Shown here in pieces: positions 1,316 through 9,820 of a stretch of DNA of 64,000 nucleotides (within the stretch, counting starts at the first letter, position 1; every line of letters begins with the position of its first letter). The stretch is from Variovorax sp. dw_308 (GTDB lineage: Bacteria > Pseudomonadota > Gammaproteobacteria > Burkholderiales > Burkholderiaceae_C). Position numbers and translations under genes: made by a program. The notes beneath the pieces were generated by a model that ran no database searches, was not told the DNA's origin, and saw only the letters and a list, made by a program, of their open reading frames with translations. Where the stretch lies: NCBI RefSeq assembly GCF_019207085.1, contig NZ_JAATOM010000004.1:62001-126000 (forward strand), read 5' to 3'.

Positions 1316-3829
1316 TCACGAGATATCGGCAAGGTCCGGCGAGGCAATGCTGGCCTTCGGCACGAAAGTCAGCGGTGCCGTGACCGCGTCGGCCACCGGC
1401 ACGAACTGGCGCACATCGACCTGCGCCCGGTTCGCTTCGAACCACGGATCCGGCTCGCCATCCAGCGCGAACTGCAAGCGCTCCCACAGCGCCTTGCGGC
1501 CGGCAACGTCCTCGAGAACCTTCTTCTTGACATGGTCCAGCCCCACGCGCGAGATGTAGTGGACCGTACGCTCCAGGTACCAGCCTTCCTCGCGGTACAG
1601 CTGCAGGAAGGCCCCCGTGTATTCCATCACTTCCTCGCTCGTCTTGAGCTTCACAAGGAACTGCGCCACCTCGGTCTTGATGCCGCCGTTGCCGCCAACG
1701 TAGACCTCCCAGCCCGAGTCCACGCCAATCACGCCCACGTCCTTGATGCCGGCCTCGGCGCAGTTGCGCGGGCAGCCCGACACCGCCAGCTTCACCTTGT
1801 GCGGCGAATACATCGCCCACAGCGCATGCTCCAGGTCCTTGCCCATCTGCGTCGAGTCCTGCGTGCCGAAGCGGCACCACTCGCTGCCCACGCAGGTCTT
1901 CACCGTGCGCAGCGACTTGCCGTAGGCGAAGCCGCTCGGCATGCCGATGTCCTTCCACACGTCCTGCAGGTCTTCCTTCTTCACGCCCAGCAGGTCGATG
2001 CGCTGCCCGCCGGTGATCTTGACCGTCGGGATCTTGTATTTGTCCGCCGCATCGGCGATGCGCCGCAGTTCGTCCGGCGTCGTGTGCCCGCCCCACATGC
2101 GCGGGATCACCGAATACGTGCCGTCCTTCTGGATGTTCGCGTGGCTGCGCTCGTTGATGAAGCGGCTTTGCGGATCGTCCTTCGCCTCCTTCGGCCAGGT
2201 GCTGATCAGGTAGTAATTGACGGCCGGGCGGCAGCTCGCGCAGCCGTTGGGCGTGCGCCAGCCCATGCCTTCGAACACCTCGGCATGCGTCAGGAATTTC
2301 TGGGCACGGATGGCGTCGCGCACGTCCTTGTGGCTCGCGTCGGTGCAGCCGCACATGGCCTTCTTCTTCGGCGCGGCGGAGTAGTCGCCGCCGGCGGTGA
2401 ACATCAGGATCTGCTCGACCAGCCCCGTGCACGAGCCGCAACTCGCGCTCGCCTTGGTGTGCTTCTTCACCTCGTCCAGCGTGAACAGGCCCTTGTCCTT
2501 GATCGCCTTGCAGATCGTGCCCTTGCTCACGCCATTGCAGCCGCAGACCTCGGCTTCGTCGGGCATCGTCGCCGCGCTGCTGTGGCCTTCATGGCCGACG
2601 TCGCCGATGTTCGATTCGCCGAACATCAGCTTCTCGCGGATGTCGTTCACGCTGCGGCCGTCGCGCAGCAGCTTGAAGTACCAGCTGCCATCGACCGTGT
2701 CGCCGTACAGGCAGGCGCCCACGAGCTTGTCGTCCTTGATCACGAGCTTCTTGTAGACCCCGCCGAAGGGATCGCTCATCACGATCTCCTCGGTGCCTTC
2801 GCCGCCCATGAACTGGCCGGCGCTGAACAGGTCGATGCCCGTCACCTTGAGCTTGGTCGAGGTCAGCGAGCCCATGTAGCGGCCGATGCCGAACTGCGCC
2901 AGGTGATTCGCCGCGACCTTGGCCTGCTCGAACAGCGGCGCCACCAGGCCATAGGCGATGCCGCGGTGCGCCGCGCATTCGCCGACCGAGTAGACGCGCG
3001 CATCGGTCACCGTCTGCATGGTGTCGTTGACCACGATGCCGCGGTTGCAGTGCAGGCGCATCGATTCGGCGAGCGCCGTGTTCGGACGGATGCCCACGGC
3101 CATCACGACCAGGTCGGCCGGCACTTCGGTGCCGCCCTTGAACTTGACCGACTTGACGCGTCCTTCGGCGTCGCCGACCAGTTCCTGCGTCTGCGCGCTC
3201 AGCAGGAAGTTGAGGCCGCGCGCTTCCAGCGACTGGCGAAGCAGCCCGCCCGCCACGTCGTCGAGCTGGCGCTCCATGAGCCACGCGTTGACATGCACCA
3301 CGGTCACGCTCATGCCGCGCAGCATCAGGCCGTTGGCGGCTTCGAGGCCGAGCAGGCCGCCGCCGATCACCACCGCATGCTTGTGCGTCTTCGCAGTCTC
3401 GATCATGGTGTTGGTGTCGGCGATGTCGCGGTAGGCGATCACGCCCTTCAGCTCCTTGCCCGGCACCGGCAGGATGAAGGGATTGGAACCGGTGCACAGC
3501 AGCAGCCGGTCGTATTCCGCTTCCACCACGCTGCCGTCCGCCGCCTCGGCACGCACGATGCGCTTCACACGGTCCACCTCGGTCACCAGCTTGCCGGCGT
3601 GCAGCGTGATGTCGTTCTCCGCGTACCACTCCCACGAGTTCAGGATGATCTGCTCGACCGTTTGCTCGCCGGCCAGCACCGGCGACAGCAGGATGCGGTT
3701 GTAGTTGGGATGCGGCTCGGCGCCGAACACGGTGATGTCGTAGAGGTCGGGCGCGAGCTTGATCAACTCTTCCACGGCGCGAACGCCGGCCATGCCGTTG
3801 CCCACCAGGACCAGTTTCATCTTTTTCAT
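1316..3829 (-). CDS. nirB: nitrite reductase (NADH) large subunit
   Basis: NirB, 837 residues, reduces nitrite to ammonium using NADH, FAD, an iron-sulfur cluster and siroheme. Visible domains: FAD-binding GNGMAG at 10-15; NAD-binding IGGGLLGLE near 155-163; a BFD-like [2Fe-2S] region with C429, C431, C464 and C467, followed by a second cysteine-rich repeat (CGC at 493-495, CASC at 530-533); then the siroheme/[4Fe-4S] module with C646, C652, C686 and C690 (CVGSEWC and CPRNC). Length is normal. The start ATG at 3829 has GGGAAG about 8 bases upstream. The gene lies 25 bases after the GAF gene and 14 before nirD, in the nitrate operon controlled by the leader upstream of nrtA. Confidence 0.97.
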   Translation of the reverse strand: MKKMKLVLVGNGMAGVRAVEELIKLAPDLYDITVFGAEPHPNYNRILLSPVLAGEQTVEQIILNSWEWYAENDITLHAGKLVTEVDRVKRIVRAEAADGSVVEAEYDRLLLCTGSNPFILPVPGKELKGVIAYRDIADTNTMIETAKTHKHAVVIGGGLLGLEAANGLMLRGMSVTVVHVNAWLMERQLDDVAGGLLRQSLEARGLNFLLSAQTQELVGDAEGRVKSVKFKGGTEVPADLVVMAVGIRPNTALAESMRLHCNRGIVVNDTMQTVTDARVYSVGECAAHRGIAYGLVAPLFEQAKVAANHLAQFGIGRYMGSLTSTKLKVTGIDLFSAGQFMGGEGTEEIVMSDPFGGVYKKLVIKDDKLVGACLYGDTVDGSWYFKLLRDGRSVNDIREKLMFGESNIGDVGHEGHSSAATMPDEAEVCGCNGVSKGTICKAIKDKGLFTLDEVKKHTKASASCGSCTGLVEQILMFTAGGDYSAAPKKKAMCGCTDASHKDVRDAIRAQKFLTHAEVFEGMGWRTPNGCASCRPAVNYYLISTWPKEAKDDPQSRFINERSHANIQKDGTYSVIPRMWGGHTTPDELRRIADAADKYKIPTVKITGGQRIDLLGVKKEDLQDVWKDIGMPSGFAYGKSLRTVKTCVGSEWCRFGTQDSTQMGKDLEHALWAMYSPHKVKLAVSGCPRNCAEAGIKDVGVIGVDSGWEVYVGGNGGIKTEVAQFLVKLKTSEEVMEYTGAFLQLYREEGWYLERTVHYISRVGLDHVKKKVLEDVAGRKALWERLQFALDGEPDPWFEANRAQVDVRQFVPVADAVTAPLTFVPKASIASPDLADIS

Positions 3830-3854: not shown

Positions 3855-4751
3855 TCAGAAGTGCAGCGCCATCACAGCGGTGATGCGGCCTTGCGGCGCG
3901 ACCGGGATGGCGATCATGGGTTCGGCGGTGTACGGAATCCCGCTCGCGAAGGCGCGGGCGATGGCGCCGGCCGCATCCGGTGCATCGCCCGTCATGGCGA
4001 TCGCTTCGAAGGCATCGTCGTCCTTGGCTGCGGTGTCGGAGAACCCGAGGCTGCGACGCAGGTGCGTGCCGCTGGTGTCGGGCTCCCAGATCTCGATGCG
4101 GCGCGCAATCGGCGTCGCGCGGGCCGACAGGAAGGCCATCACGAAGCTGGAGCCGTCCAGCGTCGAGCAGGGGATCGCGAAGCCGCGGTTGATGCCGACC
4201 TTCACCGCGCTGTCGGCGCGAATGAATCCCGCGCCCTTGCCGAGGTCCGGCAGGAACACCGGCTTTTGCGAATCCCACGCCATGCCGGGCAGCCCCGTGC
4301 CGCGACGAAACGCGGTGGCGCGCGAGATGAACTCGAAGGTGTCGCCGGTGGTGCCGTAGTAGCCGTCGACCAGCGTCATGTCGGTGGACTCTTCCGGGTC
4401 GTTGCCCCAGAGTTCGATGGCGCCGGCATGCTCTTCGTCGTCGCCGCAGAAGATCACGGCCACCGAACTCAGCCGGTCGCCCTTGAAGATCGGCACCGCG
4501 ATGCCGCAGGTCAGCCCCGCCGTCTTCGCTGCCGCGGCGCGCCGGAAGTAGGAGCCCGACAACTCCTTGAGCACGATCGGGCGCCCCGTCTCCCAGGCGC
4601 GGCCCGGCAAGCCTTCGCCACGGCCGAAGCACAGGTTCTGGCTCACGGCCGCGAAGCGATGTGCAGGGCCGAACAGGCCGCCACCAAATTCAAGCAGGCT
4701 GCCATCCTCGCTGGGCACCCAGTACTCGATGACGCGGATGAACGTCTTCAC
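3855..4751 (-). CDS. tandem GAF-domain protein of the nitrate operon
   Basis: The 298-residue protein consists of two GAF-like halves (about 1-140 and 145-298), each with the pattern GLPGRAW/GLPGMAW followed by an IP(C/V) strand and a long loop. There is no kinase, cyclase, DNA-binding or ANTAR output domain and no membrane segment, so it is a cytoplasmic sensor or ligand-binding protein of unknown output. Its start overlaps the globin stop by four bases (ATGA), indicating translational coupling, and nirB follows 25 bases later. GAF domains can bind small ligands, nucleotides, haem or NO. A role in sensing nitrogen oxides together with the globin is inference from position only. Confidence 0.8.
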   Translation of the reverse strand: MKTFIRVIEYWVPSEDGSLLEFGGGLFGPAHRFAAVSQNLCFGRGEGLPGRAWETGRPIVLKELSGSYFRRAAAAKTAGLTCGIAVPIFKGDRLSSVAVIFCGDDEEHAGAIELWGNDPEESTDMTLVDGYYGTTGDTFEFISRATAFRRGTGLPGMAWDSQKPVFLPDLGKGAGFIRADSAVKVGINRGFAIPCSTLDGSSFVMAFLSARATPIARRIEIWEPDTSGTHLRRSLGFSDTAAKDDDAFEAIAMTGDAPDAAGAIARAFASGIPYTAEPMIAIPVAPQGRITAVMALHF

Positions 4752-5188
4752 GCCTGCGCCTCCATGGCGGAGCCCTCAGCCGTCTTCCGGGCCGCCGCGA
4801 TCATCACGCCCGAAAGGGTGCCGTAGGCCGTCTCCCAGGCGTTGCGCACGTCGGGCGTGAATTCGGCGCCCAGCCCCTTGTCGAGCGTGTCGATGAGTGC
4901 GGCGCCGACCACCGCGTAGTGCGCTGGCTCCGCACCGTAGCCGACGTGCCGCTCGGCCAGGCGCTGTGCCACCGGCACCAGCGTATCGAGGTTGCCGAGG
5001 CCTCGAGTCACGCCGCCCAGCATCGTCATGAGCTTGCGCCCCTGTTCGACCATGTCGCCCTTGAAGAGTGCGCGCACCTCCGGCGCCAATTCGAAGAGCC
5101 GGCCATAGAAGATGGCCGCGGCCTGCTCGGATATCGGCACAACCTTGGCAAAGCTGGACTGCACCAGTTCGATCTGATTAGGGGTCAT
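4748..5188 (-). CDS. single-domain bacterial globin
   Basis: A 146-residue globin of the Vitreoscilla-haemoglobin/flavohaemoglobin-head type. The motif AERHVGYG places the proximal haem histidine at H81, and the CD-corner phenylalanine is probably F42 (VRALF). It lacks the FAD/NAD reductase half of flavohaemoglobin. The start at 5188 (MTPNQIELV) has GAGGA upstream; an in-frame start at 5245 would run into the nrtD stop region and adds a non-globin tail. Such globins bind O2 and NO. Placed between nrtD and the GAF gene, it may scavenge NO formed during nitrite reduction (inference). Confidence 0.92.
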   Translation of the reverse strand: MTPNQIELVQSSFAKVVPISEQAAAIFYGRLFELAPEVRALFKGDMVEQGRKLMTMLGGVTRGLGNLDTLVPVAQRLAERHVGYGAEPAHYAVVGAALIDTLDKGLGAEFTPDVRNAWETAYGTLSGVMIAAARKTAEGSAMEAQA

Positions 5189-5225
5189 CGTGGGGTTCCT
5201 CGTCGGTTGTTGTGCGGGCGAAAAA

Positions 5226-6053
5226 TCACGCGGCCTTCTCGACATGGCCCTGGCGCGTGTACAGGAAGTCGATCACCGCCTTGCGGTAGTGCACGTAGTT
5301 GCGGTCTTCCGCCAGTTCCACGCGATTGCGCGGACGTTCGAGGTTCACCGTGAGCAACTCGCCGATCGTGGCCGAGGGGCCATTGGTCATCATCACGATC
5401 TTGTCGGACAGCAGCACCGCCTCGTCCACGTCATGCGTGACCATGACGACCGTGCTCTGCGTCTTCTGCACGATGGCGAGCAGCTCGTCCTGCAGGCGTG
5501 CGCGGGTGAGCGCGTCGAGTGCGCCGAAGGGCTCATCCATCAGCAGCACCTTGGGCTCCATGGCCAGTGCGCGGGCGATGCCGACGCGCTGCTTCATGCC
5601 GCCCGAGATCTCGCCCGGTCGCTTGTGGGTGGCGGGCGTGAGGCCGACGAGTGCCAGCGCCGCATCGGTGCGCGCCTTCAATTGCACCCTCGATTCTGCG
5701 GAGCCGAACACGCGCTCCACACCAAGGTAGATGTTCTCGTAGCAGGTCAGCCAAGGCAGCAGCGAATGGTTCTGGAACACCACCGCGCGCTCCGGGCCCG
5801 GGCCGTTGATTTCCTTGTTGGCGCAGAGCAGCCCGCCATGCGTCGGCTTGGTCAACCCGGCGATCAGGTTCAGCAGTGTCGACTTGCCGCAGCCCGAGTG
5901 CCCGATGAGCGCCACGAACTCGCCCTTGGCGACCGTGAGGTTGATGTCGCGCAGCGCCTGGAAGCTGCCCTTGGGCGTCTTGAAGGTCTGCTCGACTTCG
6001 CTGATGTCGATGAACTTCCTGTCTGCCTTCTCCAGGGTCGTGGCTTCACTCAT
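5226..6053 (-). CDS. nrtD: nitrate ABC transporter ATP-binding protein
   Basis: The 275-residue ATPase of a nitrate/nitrite (NitT/TauT-family) importer. Walker A is GHSGCGKST at 51-59, the signature is ISGGMKQRVGIARAL, Walker B is VLLMDEPFGALD, and the H-loop is VTHDVDEA. The start at 6053 (MSEATTLEKAD) overlaps the nrtB stop by four bases. It lacks the C-terminal NrtA-like extension of cyanobacterial NrtC. It energises uptake of nitrate delivered by NrtA through NrtB. Confidence 0.95.
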   Translation of the reverse strand: MSEATTLEKADRKFIDISEVEQTFKTPKGSFQALRDINLTVAKGEFVALIGHSGCGKSTLLNLIAGLTKPTHGGLLCANKEINGPGPERAVVFQNHSLLPWLTCYENIYLGVERVFGSAESRVQLKARTDAALALVGLTPATHKRPGEISGGMKQRVGIARALAMEPKVLLMDEPFGALDALTRARLQDELLAIVQKTQSTVVMVTHDVDEAVLLSDKIVMMTNGPSATIGELLTVNLERPRNRVELAEDRNYVHYRKAVIDFLYTRQGHVEKAA

Positions 6054-6991
6054 GACTTCACCTCTTCGAACGTGAACGCGGTGGCGATCTTGATGAGCGC
6101 GAACTCCAGCAACAGGCCGACGATACCGATGACGAAGATCGCGATGATGATGTTCTTGACGTTGAGGTTGTTCCACTCGTCCCAGACCCAGAAGCCGATG
6201 CCGACGCCGCCGGTCAGCATCTCGGCCGCGACGATTACCAGCCATGCGGTGCCGACCGCGAGCCGCACGCCGGTGAGCATGTAGGGCAGCACGGCGGGGA
6301 AGAGGATCTTGGTGATGATCTTCCACTCGCTGAGGTTGAGCACCTTGGCCACGTTCATGTAGTCGCTCGGCACGCGCTGCACGCCCACGGCCGTGTTGAT
6401 GACCATCGGCCAGATCGAGCAGATGAAGATGGTCCAGATGGCGGCCGGGTTGGCGCCCTTGAAAACGAGCAGGCCGATCGGCAACCAGGCCAGCGGCGAC
6501 ACGGGCCGCAGCAGGCTGATCAGCGGATTGAACATGCGCGCCAGGAACTCGAAGCGCCCGATCGCAAAGCCCGCCGGAATGCCGACCGCGGCCGCGAGCC
6601 CGAAGCCCAAGGCGACACGCTGCAGCGACGAGAGCACGTTCCAGCCGACGCCTTGGTCGTTCGGCCCCTTGCTGTAGAACGGATCGCTGAAGACATCGAG
6701 CGCCTGCTTCCAGGTCTCCAGCGGCGAGGGAAAGCCATTGGTGCTCCGGAGTGCCACCAGTTCCCAGATCAGCAGCAGCAGGCCGAAGCCCGCGAGCGGC
6801 GGCAACACGCGCATCCAGAGCCATCGCAGGTCTAGGACTTTGCGCCGTTGCTCCCTCTCCCCCGTGAGGAGAGGGCTGGGGTGAGGGGCAGCCTGGACAC
6901 GAGGTACACCCTCACCCCGACCCTCTCCCGCACGCGGGAGAGGGAGAGGAATGGACGCATCGAGCGGGGAGTGAAAAACAGCGCTGACCAT
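6050..6991 (-). CDS. nrtB: nitrate ABC transporter permease with repeat-derived N-terminal insertion
   Basis: A 313-residue inner-membrane permease of the NitT/TauT family. The body from LDLRWLWMRVLPP onward has the usual hydrophobic segments and the EAA-type loop. The ATG at 6991 has GAGGAG seven bases upstream, so the N-terminus is probably translated. Residues roughly 14-48 are encoded by two inverted copies of a GC-rich palindromic repeat (6850-6955) and read as a Pro/Gly/Arg-rich stretch (LPLPRAGEGRGEG) with no counterpart expected in permeases. The insertion keeps the frame, so the protein may remain functional with an altered cytoplasmic tail. It lies between nrtA and nrtD. Confidence 0.92.
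   Translation of the reverse strand: MVSAVFHSPLDASIPLPLPRAGEGRGEGVPRVQAAPHPSPLLTGEREQRRKVLDLRWLWMRVLPPLAGFGLLLLIWELVALRSTNGFPSPLETWKQALDVFSDPFYSKGPNDQGVGWNVLSSLQRVALGFGLAAAVGIPAGFAIGRFEFLARMFNPLISLLRPVSPLAWLPIGLLVFKGANPAAIWTIFICSIWPMVINTAVGVQRVPSDYMNVAKVLNLSEWKIITKILFPAVLPYMLTGVRLAVGTAWLVIVAAEMLTGGVGIGFWVWDEWNNLNVKNIIIAIFVIGIVGLLLEFALIKIATAFTFEEVKS
6850..6955. repeat. inverted pair of GC-rich palindromic repeats inside nrtB
   Basis: Two copies of the CCCTCACCCC...CCTCTCC / GGAGAGGG element face each other: one ends near 6888 as GGCTGGGGTGAGGG, the other begins near 6910 as CCCTCACCCCGACCC. A third copy lies at 459-494. The pair lies wholly inside the nrtB reading frame and adds about 35 codons. 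Confidence 0.75.
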
Positions 6992-7001
6992 GTCGTGCTC
7001 C

Positions 7002-8246
7002 TCAGGCCTGGACCTTGAACGAATCGGCGTACTTCTTCGGGTCCTTGCCGTCCCACACCACGCCGTCGAAGAGCTTGCTGGTGCGCATCGGGTCCTTCGG
7101 CACGCTGACCTTCATCGCGCTGGCGACGTCCTTGTAGAGGTCGATCTGGTTGATCTGCTTCGCGACCGCGAGGTAGTCCGGGTGCTCCTTCAGGATGCCC
7201 CAGCGCTTGTGCTGCGTGAGGAACCACATGCCGTCGGACAGGTAAGGGAAGTTGACCTGGCCGTCGTCGAAGAACTTCATGTGGTTGGGGTCGTCCCAGG
7301 TCTTGCCCATGCCGTTGTCGTAGCGGCCCAGGATGCGCTGGTTGATCGCGTCGGCGCTGGTGTTGATGTACGACTTCTCGGCCACCGTCTCGGCCATCTT
7401 TGTCTTGTTCTGCAGGTTGGCATCGATCCACTTGCCGGCCTCCATCACGGCCATCATCACGGCGCGGCAGGTGTTCGGATTGGCCTTGACGAACTCGGCG
7501 CGCGTGCCGAGCACCTTCTCCGGGTGGTCCTTCCAGATGTCCTGCGTGGTGATCGCGGTCACGCCGATCTTGTCGATGATGGCCCGCTGGCCCCACGGCT
7601 CGCCGACGCAGAACCCGTCCATGTTGCCCACGCGCATGTTGGCCACCATCTGCGGCGGGGGCACCACGATGACCTTGGCATCGCTGATCGGGCTGATGCC
7701 CGAGGCCGACAGCCAATAGTTGAGCCACATCGTGTGCGTGCTGGTGGGGAAGGTGCCGGCGAAGGTGTATTCGCGCTTCTCCTTGGCCATCAGTTTGGCC
7801 AGCGACGGGCCGTCGACCGCGCCCTTGTCGGCCAGCGCCTTCGACAGCGTGATCGCCTGGCCGTTGCGGTTCAGGCCCATCAGCACGGCCATGTCCTTCT
7901 TCGCGCCGCCAGCGCCGACGTGCACGCCGTAGACCAGGCCGTAGAGCACGTGCGCCATGTCGAGCTCGCCGTTGACGAGCTTGTCGCGCACGCCGGCCCA
8001 ACTGGCCTCCTTGCTCAGCGTGAGCTTCACGCCGTGCTTCTTGTCGAGGCCCAGCACCGAGGCCATCACCACGCTGGCGCAATCGGTCAGCGGTATGAAG
8101 CCGATCTTCACCTCGGGCTTCTCGGGCTTGTCGGAGCCTTGCGCCCAGACGGTGGCGCGCAACGCGGGGGCGATAGCGACCGCGCCTGCGGCGGCGGCTT
8201 TCAGTGCGGTGCGTCGGCTCAATTTGAATTTCAGCGCATCGGTCAT
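7002..8246 (-). CDS. nrtA: nitrate-binding protein of the ABC transporter
   Basis: A 414-residue NrtA/CmpA-type solute-binding protein. The start at 8246 gives MTDALKFKLSRRTALKAAA, a twin-arginine signal followed by a hydrophobic stretch ending at VWAQG, so export in the folded state through Tat is likely. The mature part begins KPEVKIGFIPLTDCA, typical of nitrate-binding family members. It is the first gene after the regulatory leader, and CCGGAG lies about ten bases before the ATG. A longer frame to 8333 reads through the terminator and is not used. Confidence 0.95.
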   Translation of the reverse strand: MTDALKFKLSRRTALKAAAAGAVAIAPALRATVWAQGSDKPEKPEVKIGFIPLTDCASVVMASVLGLDKKHGVKLTLSKEASWAGVRDKLVNGELDMAHVLYGLVYGVHVGAGGAKKDMAVLMGLNRNGQAITLSKALADKGAVDGPSLAKLMAKEKREYTFAGTFPTSTHTMWLNYWLSASGISPISDAKVIVVPPPQMVANMRVGNMDGFCVGEPWGQRAIIDKIGVTAITTQDIWKDHPEKVLGTRAEFVKANPNTCRAVMMAVMEAGKWIDANLQNKTKMAETVAEKSYINTSADAINQRILGRYDNGMGKTWDDPNHMKFFDDGQVNFPYLSDGMWFLTQHKRWGILKEHPDYLAVAKQINQIDLYKDVASAMKVSVPKDPMRTSKLFDGVVWDGKDPKKYADSFKVQA

Positions 8247-8281
8247 GGGGCGAACTCCGGTCAAAACAACAAACGAAAAAC

Positions 8282-8350
8282 AAAAAAGGCGTCCTTGCCG
8301 CGCATCTGCTGCTCGAAATGAATACGAGTGCATGCGGGCAAGGACGCCTT
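8282..8350 (-). terminator. leader intrinsic terminator upstream of nrtA
   Basis: On the minus strand AAGGCGTCCTTGCC pairs with GGCAAGGACGCCTT, followed at once by a T-run (TTTTTTG). The intervening bases can extend the stem with CGCAT/ATGCG. It lies after the promoter and before the nrtA ATG, so it must be bypassed for operon expression. This is the expected target of NasR-type antitermination. Confidence 0.9.
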
Positions 8351-8359
8351 TGTCCTGTT

Positions 8360-8412
8360 GGTGGGCGACACCCTTCGTTGGATGCCACCTGCCTGAAGAC
8401 CGTCTTTGGTCT
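8360..8412 (-). ncRNA. ANTAR dual-hexaloop RNA motif in the nrtA leader
   Basis: Two stem-loops precede the terminator on the transcript. P1 (8397-8412) is AGACC-AAAGAC-GGTCT. P2 (core 8370-8383) is ATCC-AACGAA-GGGT, extended below by GGTGGC/GCCCACC. Both have six-base loops with A at position 1 and G at position 4, the pattern described for RNAs bound by ANTAR-domain antiterminators. P1 starts within a few bases of the predicted +1. The NIT-ANTAR gene is the neighbouring gene. Confidence 0.88.
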
Positions 8413-8426
8413 ATGGCTGAAGTGGT

Positions 8427-8442
8427 TGCAAGCGGCGTGCCA
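8427..8442 (-). promoter_or_regulatory. sigma-54 promoter of the nitrate operon
   Basis: On the minus strand TGGCACGCCGCTTGCA matches the -24/-12 consensus TGGCAC-N5-TTGCW exactly. The predicted start is about 8416, leaving a leader of about 170 bases before nrtA that begins almost at the first ANTAR stem. Confidence 0.88.
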
Positions 8443-8460
8443 GCGCTTCCGAGTTGCTTA

Positions 8461-8481
8461 TTGCTATCAAAATGATAGCAA
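8461..8481. promoter_or_regulatory. 9-base inverted repeat upstream of the sigma-54 promoter
   Basis: TTGCTATCA-AAA-TGATAGCAA is a perfect palindrome lying about 45-65 bases upstream of the predicted start. The half TTGCTATCAAAA recurs upstream of pnp near 15384, so it may be a dispersed repeat rather than a specific operator. Confidence 0.5.
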
Positions 8482-8535
8482 TGAACTGTTACTCAACAAG
8501 CATCTCCGCGCGATTTGAATGAGATCGACCCGGAG

Positions 8536-8550
8536 GCACCCGATTTGTGC
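8536..8550. promoter_or_regulatory. NtrC-like enhancer site
   Basis: GCAC-N7-GTGC (GCACCCGATTTGTGC) matches the core of NtrC binding sites. It lies about 120-135 bases upstream of the predicted sigma-54 start, a normal enhancer distance, between the nasR stop codon and the promoter. Confidence 0.6.
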
Positions 8551-8560
8551 AGCGCACCAA

Positions 8561-9820
8561 TTAGTTTCCGGAGGGCAGGAAGTCGGCCATCGAAAGCACC
8601 GACTCGGCCACATCGACCAGCCGCCGGTTCTGGTTCATCGCGGTCTGGCGCAGCATCTTGTGCGCCTCCTCTTCCGTCATGCGCTTGTGGGCCATCAACA
8701 GGCCCTTGGCCCGCTCCACCAGCTTGCGCTCGTTGAGGCCGGCGCGCACGGCTTCCAGTTCGTCGCTCATGGCCTGCAGGCGCTGCGACTGCTCCTGCAG
8801 CATGTCCAGCACCGAGCGCTCGAGCTGGTGTCCATAGGCCTTGACCGTGGGCGGCTGGGGCGCGATGTCGTCGAAGAAGGCCGTCGGCACGCCGGTCTCC
8901 TGCGCGCCGGTCACCTGGTCCAGCAAGGCCTCGTTGGCATCGGCCTCGGCCCGGGCCTCGGCGATCTTGCGGTCGCACAGCGCGCGCAGGTCGCTCGCCA
9001 GCCGTTCCTCGATCGCCTTCATTGCGTCGATGCGAAGCGAGCAGCAATCGAACCAGACCGTGCTGAGTTCGGCGTCGAGCGGCTCGCCGGGTGCGGTCGT
9101 GATGGCCGCGCGGCGCAGCCGTTCCAGCTCGGCGGTTTCCTCCGCGGGTTGGCTGTCGCGCCACAACCTCGCCAGCACAGGCCCGGCAAACTCGGTGAAC
9201 ACATGGAAGCAGCGCTCCTGCGCCGCAATGAGTTGCAGCCATCGCTGCTGGCGGGTGCCGTCATCCTGGCCCGCGGCAAACGCGGCCGCTCCACAGGCAC
9301 GCTCCTGGCCCGCGAATTCCTTGCCCTGCATGAAATTGAACATGGCGGCGAGCAGTCGCGAAATTTCCGGGTCGGTCGCGCCATCGGCCGCCTCGAACAC
9401 CACCGCCAGCAGTCCGGTGATCAGCTTGGCAAAGGCCGCCGCCGCGTCGGCCACGCCGATCTCCAGCGCGCCGATGCGCCGCCGCAGAACGGGCAGGGCA
9501 TCCAGCCCCGGCAGCACCCAGGCGATGCGGCTGAACAGGCGCGTGCCGCTGCCCAGGCGGCGTGCTTCCGCATGCAACCTGTCGAAGCCGGCACGCACCT
9601 CCTGCTCCAGCCGAATGGATTCGCCGACCTGCACGCTGCGTTGCGCGGCAAAACGCTTGCCCTGCGAGGCCAGCAGCACGTTCGACAACCCGCGCTCGCG
9701 CTGCAGCGCATGCACCAGACGGCCGATCGTCCCGACCAGTTCACTGGTGCGCGCGAGCTGGTCCAGTTCGTCGATTTCGCAGCGCCGGGCTGCGACAAGA
9801 AAGCTCAGTCCTGATTTCAT
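8561..9820 (-). CDS. nasR: nitrate/nitrite-sensing ANTAR antiterminator (NasR type)
   Basis: A 419-residue protein with an N-terminal NIT (nitrate/nitrite-sensing) domain of about 270 residues, beginning with the [14 protein letters not shown] helix, and a C-terminal ANTAR RNA-binding domain (about 350-412) with [10 protein letters not shown] and [13 protein letters not shown]. In Klebsiella NasR, nitrate or nitrite binding to NIT lets ANTAR bind leader RNA and stop terminator formation. The leader with two hexaloops lies directly downstream, before nrtA. The gene ends 11 bases from the NtrC-like site and is divergent from tsaD by 60 bases. Confidence 0.93.

Follow-up and report, generated by a model that had tools for sequence, protein, structure and literature searches.

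The locus considered here raises the question of how a nitrate-assimilation operon of Variovorax sp. dw_308 is switched on, and which hairpins of its leader RNA would be recognized by the regulator encoded next to it. In the window, i.e., the whole stretch of 64,000 nucleotides that was analyzed, the original prediction had seen a sigma-54/NtrC promoter, two ANTAR hexaloop hairpins and a terminator, arranged in this order ahead of nrtA and beside a NIT-ANTAR gene. All coordinates given below are those of the window, and all features described lie on its minus strand.

Downstream of the leader there is a closely spaced run of genes. It starts with the gene of an nrtA-like nitrate ABC transporter binding protein (7002–8246; PF13379, the name being taken from the context), whose start codon at 8246 is preceded by GGAG, and continues with a nitrate ABC permease (6050–6991; TIGR01183, over the cut-off), a nitrate ABC ATPase (5226–5954; TIGR01184, over the cut-off, the limits being those of the domain and the stop codon and not of the gene start), a globin (4748–5245), a GAF-domain protein (3855–4751), nirB (1316–3829; TIGR02374, over the cut-off) and a nirD-like Rieske protein (873–1301, start approximate). 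The name of the last was assigned by eye on the motif CPHRGG...CPLHNW, which we take to mark a NirD-like Rieske protein. A nasA-like molybdopterin reductase gene is present with its 5' end (1–185) and runs beyond the window; its scores with the nitrate reductase models were below the NCBIfam cut-offs. The 687 bases between the nirD-like and nasA-like genes (186–872), with 18-bp tandem repeats at 756–826, may separate nasA from the operon. The same gap also holds stretches that look REP-like by eye.

Ahead of this run, the sequence TGGCACGCCGCTTGCA (8427–8442) is an exact match to the -24/-12 consensus, by which we presume it to be a sigma-54 promoter, and it is the sole match in the window at one mismatch or fewer. 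Shuffled versions of the window contain on average 2.04 matches at this tolerance, and the exact pattern TGGCAC-N5-TTGCW occurs at four sites in the whole genome, the reversed control pattern occurring at four as well. An NtrC-like enhancer, TGCAC-N7-GTGCc (8535–8551), is located 93–109 bases upstream of the -24 box; its core GCAC-N7-GTGC (8550–8536) is not significant alone, with three occurrences in the window vs. 3.75 expected. For GGACAANGGCGTCC, the exact match in the window was the only one in the genome among 22 places at one mismatch, the reversed control pattern giving 37. As stand-alone evidence, the palindrome and the sigma-54 box were both rejected, their counts being no higher than chance. 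Since neither motif alone exceeds chance, the weight of both comes from their conservation in the relatives described below: the sigma-54 box was found in 75 of 78 leaders, 37–40 or 57–68 bases ahead of loop B, and of 75 upstream stretches, 67 gave the NtrC-like palindrome a score of 8/10 or better, vs. approximately 10% of base-shuffled stretches, the palindrome starting 97–119 bases upstream of the sigma-54 box in 56 of the 75 (rows counted by hand). An NtrC protein is encoded in the genome, over its family cut-off, and with it all features of a sigma-54/NtrC promoter (the -24/-12 consensus, the NtrC-like site and the genomic NtrC) are present. The palindrome and the promoter box, as well as the 5'-most hairpin at 8397–8412, are indeed where the original prediction had placed them on the minus strand. 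Transcription is predicted to start near 8416, as a sigma-54 start site is expected some 12 nt past the -12 GC, and a sigma-70 consensus scan, the sole type of scan used for this purpose, revealed no second promoter past the terminator.

The leader (8416–8270) folds with -70.1 kcal/mol (z -8.3), none of 200 shuffles being equally stable. The predicted terminator with a T-run before nrtA is present as a stem at 8351–8285 of about -41 kcal/mol, followed by the T-run TTTTTTGTTTTT (8276–8287, position counted on the sequence), the first T's of which close the stem. Upstream of the T-run, a scan for six-base loops with A in the first and G in the fourth position (A1 and G4) revealed three hairpins and not two. 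Hairpin A (8397–8412) has a 5-bp stem and the loop AAAGAC. Hairpin B (8364–8389), with the loop AACGAA, had been placed at 8370–8383; the hairpin is there, whereas its full stem is longer, comprising 10 bp from 8389 to 8364. Hairpin C (AGGAC-AAAGGC-GTCCT, 8356–8341) is embedded in the terminator: the bases of its loop and 3' arm serve also in the 5' arm of the terminator stem. Hairpin B has no base in common with the terminator, whereas C has, and the earlier suggestion of competition between the terminator and the stem or linker of the AACGAA hairpin is not supported. The original prediction paired the wrong hairpins because this terminator-competing hairpin had been overlooked.

Hairpin C and the terminator exclude each other on paper. 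When the growing transcript was folded in steps of 4 nucleotides, C belonged to the best fold until nucleotide 123 and was replaced by the terminator from nucleotide 127. Keeping C by force cost 18 kcal/mol and left a shorter terminator stem at a distance from the T-run; in this modeled fold, hairpin A would open and pair with the freed 3' arm of the terminator. In the eut, amiE and nasF leaders, the second hexaloop is reported to lie where the terminator begins, at its 5' base (PMC8934654, PMC3369931, PMC7496416, PMC3369936), the hexaloops of published ANTAR leaders to carry A1 and G4 (PMC8934654, PMC3369931, PMC3369936), the linkers of the eut leaders to measure 5–12 nt (PMC3369931), and the RNAs selected by NasR in SELEX to have a C-G closing pair beneath the loop (PMC7496416). 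Hairpins B and C have the same dual-hexaloop layout: A1/G4 loops, overlap of the second hairpin with the terminator, a short linker (7–8 nt) and C-G closing pairs in both. Since C, lying inside the 5' arm of the terminator, matches the published arrangement, the canonical ANTAR pair is B and C and not A and B, with B as the functional P1 carrying a putative recruitment hexaloop and C as the functional P2 carrying a putative antiterminator hexaloop.

Conservation of this layout was analyzed in the best 80 of the 176 loci obtained in a scan with the NIT-ANTAR protein of the window, which belong mostly to Comamonadaceae, the nearest being from Variovorax (79–80% identity). In a pattern search, B and C were found within 650 bases of the regulator gene in 77 of the 80 relatives (78 of 81 with the window). 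In Ramlibacter monticola (L080), the B–C element (5523–5578) was observed about 1.3 kb downstream of the regulator gene and is not adjacent to it. Two contigs (L018 and L025) end ahead of the element and were left out of the readable set, and the element is present in all 79 readable leaders, i.e., the one of the window and those of 78 relatives. The sequence GGAC-AAMGGC-GTCC (M being A or C) forms the core of hairpin C in all 78 pattern-found leaders and in L080; the pattern for C, however, fixed all letters except the outer pair and loop bases 2–3, and the C patterns as well as the first search for B required A1 and G4, so that pattern matches alone prove little. In an alignment of 57 rows that spans the leader from the promoter through C, loop B has A1 and G4 without exception, and the C-G pair closes both B and C in 54 of 54 rows, L080 having U-G at B. 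The stem of hairpin B changed on both sides in 77 cells vs. 19.3 in shuffles, and its covariation score was 0.40 vs. 0.12, none of 500 shuffles scoring as high; the number of its pairs with two-sided change (5 of 7) was not above shuffles (mean 4.9, with 448 of 500 reaching 5). For the 17 leaders from outside the Variovorax clade, the corresponding values for B were 17 two-sided cells vs. 3.8 in shuffles and 4 pairs vs. 2.5 (54 of 500). In L056, L067 and L070 the B stem counts fewer than four unbroken pairs; in L006 it is broken. The stem of hairpin C is invariant and offers no covariation support, its letters being also constrained by the terminator. One or the other of two patterns detected the 3' arm of the terminator with its T's in 77 of 78 leaders (65 by the strict and 76 by the loose one), and L067 has such an arm by eye. 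The original prediction had named the loss of the A1/G4 bases and of the terminator in close relatives as an observation that would speak against it; such loss was found for hairpin A and was not found for B, C and the terminator.

The distance between the B and C loops is 39–44 nt in 16 of the leaders that do not belong to the Variovorax clade (L049, L054, L056, L057, L063–L065, L067, L069, L072, L073, L075–L079) vs. 27–31 nt elsewhere, and in several of these wide-spacing leaders a small hairpin was observed in the B–C linker. For eutP, strict hexaloop spacing has been reported (PMC3369931), with which these leaders are in tension.

Hairpin A was analyzed in the 75 leaders in which the promoter as well as B and C could be located. 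There is a hairpin between the promoter and B in 58 of them, the other 17 leaving no room for it. A stem of at least five pairs can be formed in all 49 distinct A regions vs. 19.8 expected from shuffles, although a single region taken alone is not unusual, 16% of its shuffles scoring equally well on average. The loop of A is not conserved: in the 58 best folds it comprises four bases in 32, five in 9, three in 1 and six in 16, and several of the four-base loops are GNRA or UUCG. An A1/G4 hexaloop is the best fold at A only in the window, L003, L005 and L055, and it can be folded alternatively in L006 and L014, which makes up to six. The regulator tree has a supported branch (63 rows, 100/96) with the A-bearing rows all to the same side of it, and A was lost once, in the Variovorax sister pair L015 and L019 (read by eye from the tree drawing), while its A1/G4 state is scattered and needs three changes. 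Hairpin A is absent from this pair and from 15 more leaders, all of which keep B and C. The proposal that A is a general ANTAR site was rejected, as its loop varies and carries A1/G4 in only 4 of the 58 best folds. Judging from these comparisons, A is probably a clade-specific 5' hairpin. It is sensible to read it as a structural hairpin beginning about 5 nt past the predicted start site, where it would perhaps protect the 5' end of the RNA, and to suppose that the hairpin A of the window became ANTAR-like by drift or, less likely, by recruitment.

The protein that would act on the leader is encoded by the neighboring gene at 8561–9820. As had been predicted, it combines NIT and ANTAR domains in one polypeptide (PF08376, 178 bits, and PF03861, 70 bits), and its closest PDB entry is Klebsiella NasR, 4AKK (1.6e-50). 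This NasR-like regulator is the only ANTAR protein found in the genome. The RNA-binding residues of NasR, R340, K345, K347, W362, R366 and N373, correspond to R, R, K, H, R and N in the window protein; the K345R replacement is tolerated in NasR, and W362 of the Klebsiella protein is needed for RNA binding and autoinhibition, according to PMC7496416. Among the 77 of 81 regulators that were read at these positions, R340 and K347 are present in 77, R366 in 69, N373 in 48 and W362 in none; the position of W362 (residue 387 of the window protein by our own residue count) is occupied by His in 65 of the 77, including the window, and by Tyr in 12.

Targets of this protein were sought with two models. 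The model R1, built from 54 B–C stretches with the window sequence included, gave 58.2 bits for the window site in its own genome and 17 bits for the next match (best 150 of 7,371 candidates scored). The model R2, built only from the 17 leaders outside the Variovorax clade with the window held out, ranked the site first within the window with 22.8 bits (E 2e-5), ahead of a match with 11.9 bits; over the whole genome, where the best 150 of 6,682 candidates were scored, the window site was not returned and other places reached up to 20.5 bits. Candidates for a second genomic target, namely the R1 runner-up (17 bits) and the four best R2 matches, were rejected, all of them lying in open frames and having no intact hairpin C, the open frames being weak counter-evidence in such GC-rich DNA. 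By these searches, the genome combines a single ANTAR protein with a single recognizable target. In the class as a whole, with the best 15 candidates per genome scored, R1 matched (E 0.01) at least 46 of 369 genomes; an ANTAR protein is encoded in 42 of these 46 and, of the remaining 323, in 72 (own genome included; Fisher p 4e-20), and 42 of the 52 matches listed are situated at most 10 kb from an ANTAR gene.

At the gathering threshold, the Rfam search of the window returned nothing beyond one tRNA. Below it, the leader matched RF00625 (P11) with 26.3 bits against a gathering score of 70 and RF03032 (narK) with 22.4 bits against 43.2, both matches spanning its promoter and hexaloops; in a search of the own genome, the narK family had no match at E 0.001. 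Within the class, P11 matched 12 of 369 genomes (one match over the cut-off) and narK 15 of 369 (two over the cut-off). R1 also matched at every one of the three over-cut-off places, and genomes with any match to P11 or narK are also R1 genomes in 9 of 12 and 11 of 15 cases, respectively. Each of the three over-cut-off members (L127, L133 and L134; genomes G162 and G136) has a terminator-like 3' arm in addition to two A1/G4 hexaloops, and an ANTAR gene is situated no more than about 10.5 kb away. In the P11 member, which precedes a NirB-like gene, the first hexaloop sits on a three-pair stem, and the sigma-54 pattern was found in this member only; the narK member of G162 precedes an MFS-like gene (both neighbors named by eye). 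These likenesses suggest that in P11 and narK, Rfam contains two families of ANTAR leaders, which could be re-described as such.

Three other readings of the locus have to be weighed against antitermination by B and C. That A (AAAGAC) and B (AACGAA) form the ANTAR pair, with B or the linker competing with the terminator, would agree with the window itself, where both loops have A1, G4 and C-G closing pairs and are separated by 7 nt. The terminator, however, shares bases with C and none with B, and in the relatives the A1/G4 hexaloop at A is restricted to a few best folds, while L015, L019 and the 15 other leaders without A retain B and C; we regard this pairing as very improbable. The original prediction stands as regards the class of the switch, the sigma-54/NtrC features and the NIT-ANTAR protein in a betaproteobacterium being supported, with Variovorax as the nearest relatives, and fails as regards the pair, in which A has an unconserved loop and C was missed.

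A related possibility is that of a three-hexaloop array, in which the structural 5' hairpin A has gained an ANTAR-type loop in the Variovorax subclade of the window and pre-loads the regulator dimer before B and C. The A1/G4 hexaloops at A of the window, L003, L005 and L055, together with the possible folds in L006 and L014, the about equal A–B and B–C spacings (7 and 7–8 nt) and the presence of G4 in 12 of the 16 six-base A loops by our own reading could be understood in this way; but the A1/G4 state needs three changes on the tree, the sister loops GACGAA of L002 and L004 lack A1, and 42 of the 58 A loops are not of six bases in the best fold, so that we consider such an array unlikely. It also appears highly doubtful that the terminator is unregulated and the terminated transcript acts chiefly as a small RNA. 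The similarity of the leader to P11, which Rfam types as a gene and not as a leader, points in that direction, against which stand the position of the terminator between the promoter and nrtA, the conservation of the hexaloops beside the ANTAR gene and the NirB-like gene that follows the sole over-cut-off P11 match.

We hold it highly probable that the operon is governed by ANTAR antitermination through B and C under sigma-54/NtrC control. Such a system would be a two-signal switch of nitrate assimilation, responding to nitrogen limitation and to nitrate. Under nitrogen limitation, phosphorylated NtrC bound near 8535–8551 would activate the sigma-54 promoter, with transcription starting near 8416, and as the polymerase advances, hairpins A, B and then C would fold in turn, A serving as the structural 5' hairpin of the Variovorax clade. 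If nitrate is absent, the long terminator would reclaim the bases of C, and transcription would halt at the T-run. If nitrate is present, the NIT domain would release the ANTAR domain, and the dimer, recruited at hexaloop B, would hold hexaloop C; the terminator stem would then be shorter and detached from the T-run, allowing read-through into nrtA and the rest of the operon.

The present analysis puts a NIT-ANTAR leader in Comamonadaceae on a firm comparative footing and corrects which of its hairpins are relevant. The A-less leaders L015 and L019 and the wide B–C leaders outside the clade would provide natural tests of ideas on hairpin number and spacing. Among the titles and abstract openings searched, most subscription journals being outside the scope, no title dealt with the Variovorax leader or with any ANTAR leader of three hairpins, and we make no claim that it is unpublished. 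The logic of sigma-54, NtrC and ANTAR antitermination is already described for Pseudomonas NalA (PMC12830290), and the prototype of NIT-ANTAR control is NasR with the nasF leader; to call the locus a clean model, as was originally done, is an overstatement, as nasF and NalA already serve in this capacity.

Of the known systems, that of Klebsiella oxytoca has in common with the Variovorax locus a NIT-ANTAR protein, a nitrate operon and a leader with P1 and P2 hexaloops, P2 lying in the terminator (PMC3369931, PMC7496416, PMC3369936); the Variovorax leader differs by the additional 5' hairpin A and its regulator by His in the place of W362 (own residue count). Enterococcus EutV and the eutP leader share with it the dual hexaloops with A1/G4 and an antiterminator hairpin within the terminator, whereas EutV is a phosphorylated response regulator and the signal is ethanolamine (PMC8934654, PMC3369931). 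Pseudomonas NalA, as reviewed in PMC12830290, likewise combines a sigma-54 start, NtrC and ANTAR antitermination before nirBD, but its regulator is of the NasS/NasT kind and not a one-component NIT-ANTAR protein, and its leader directly precedes nirBD.
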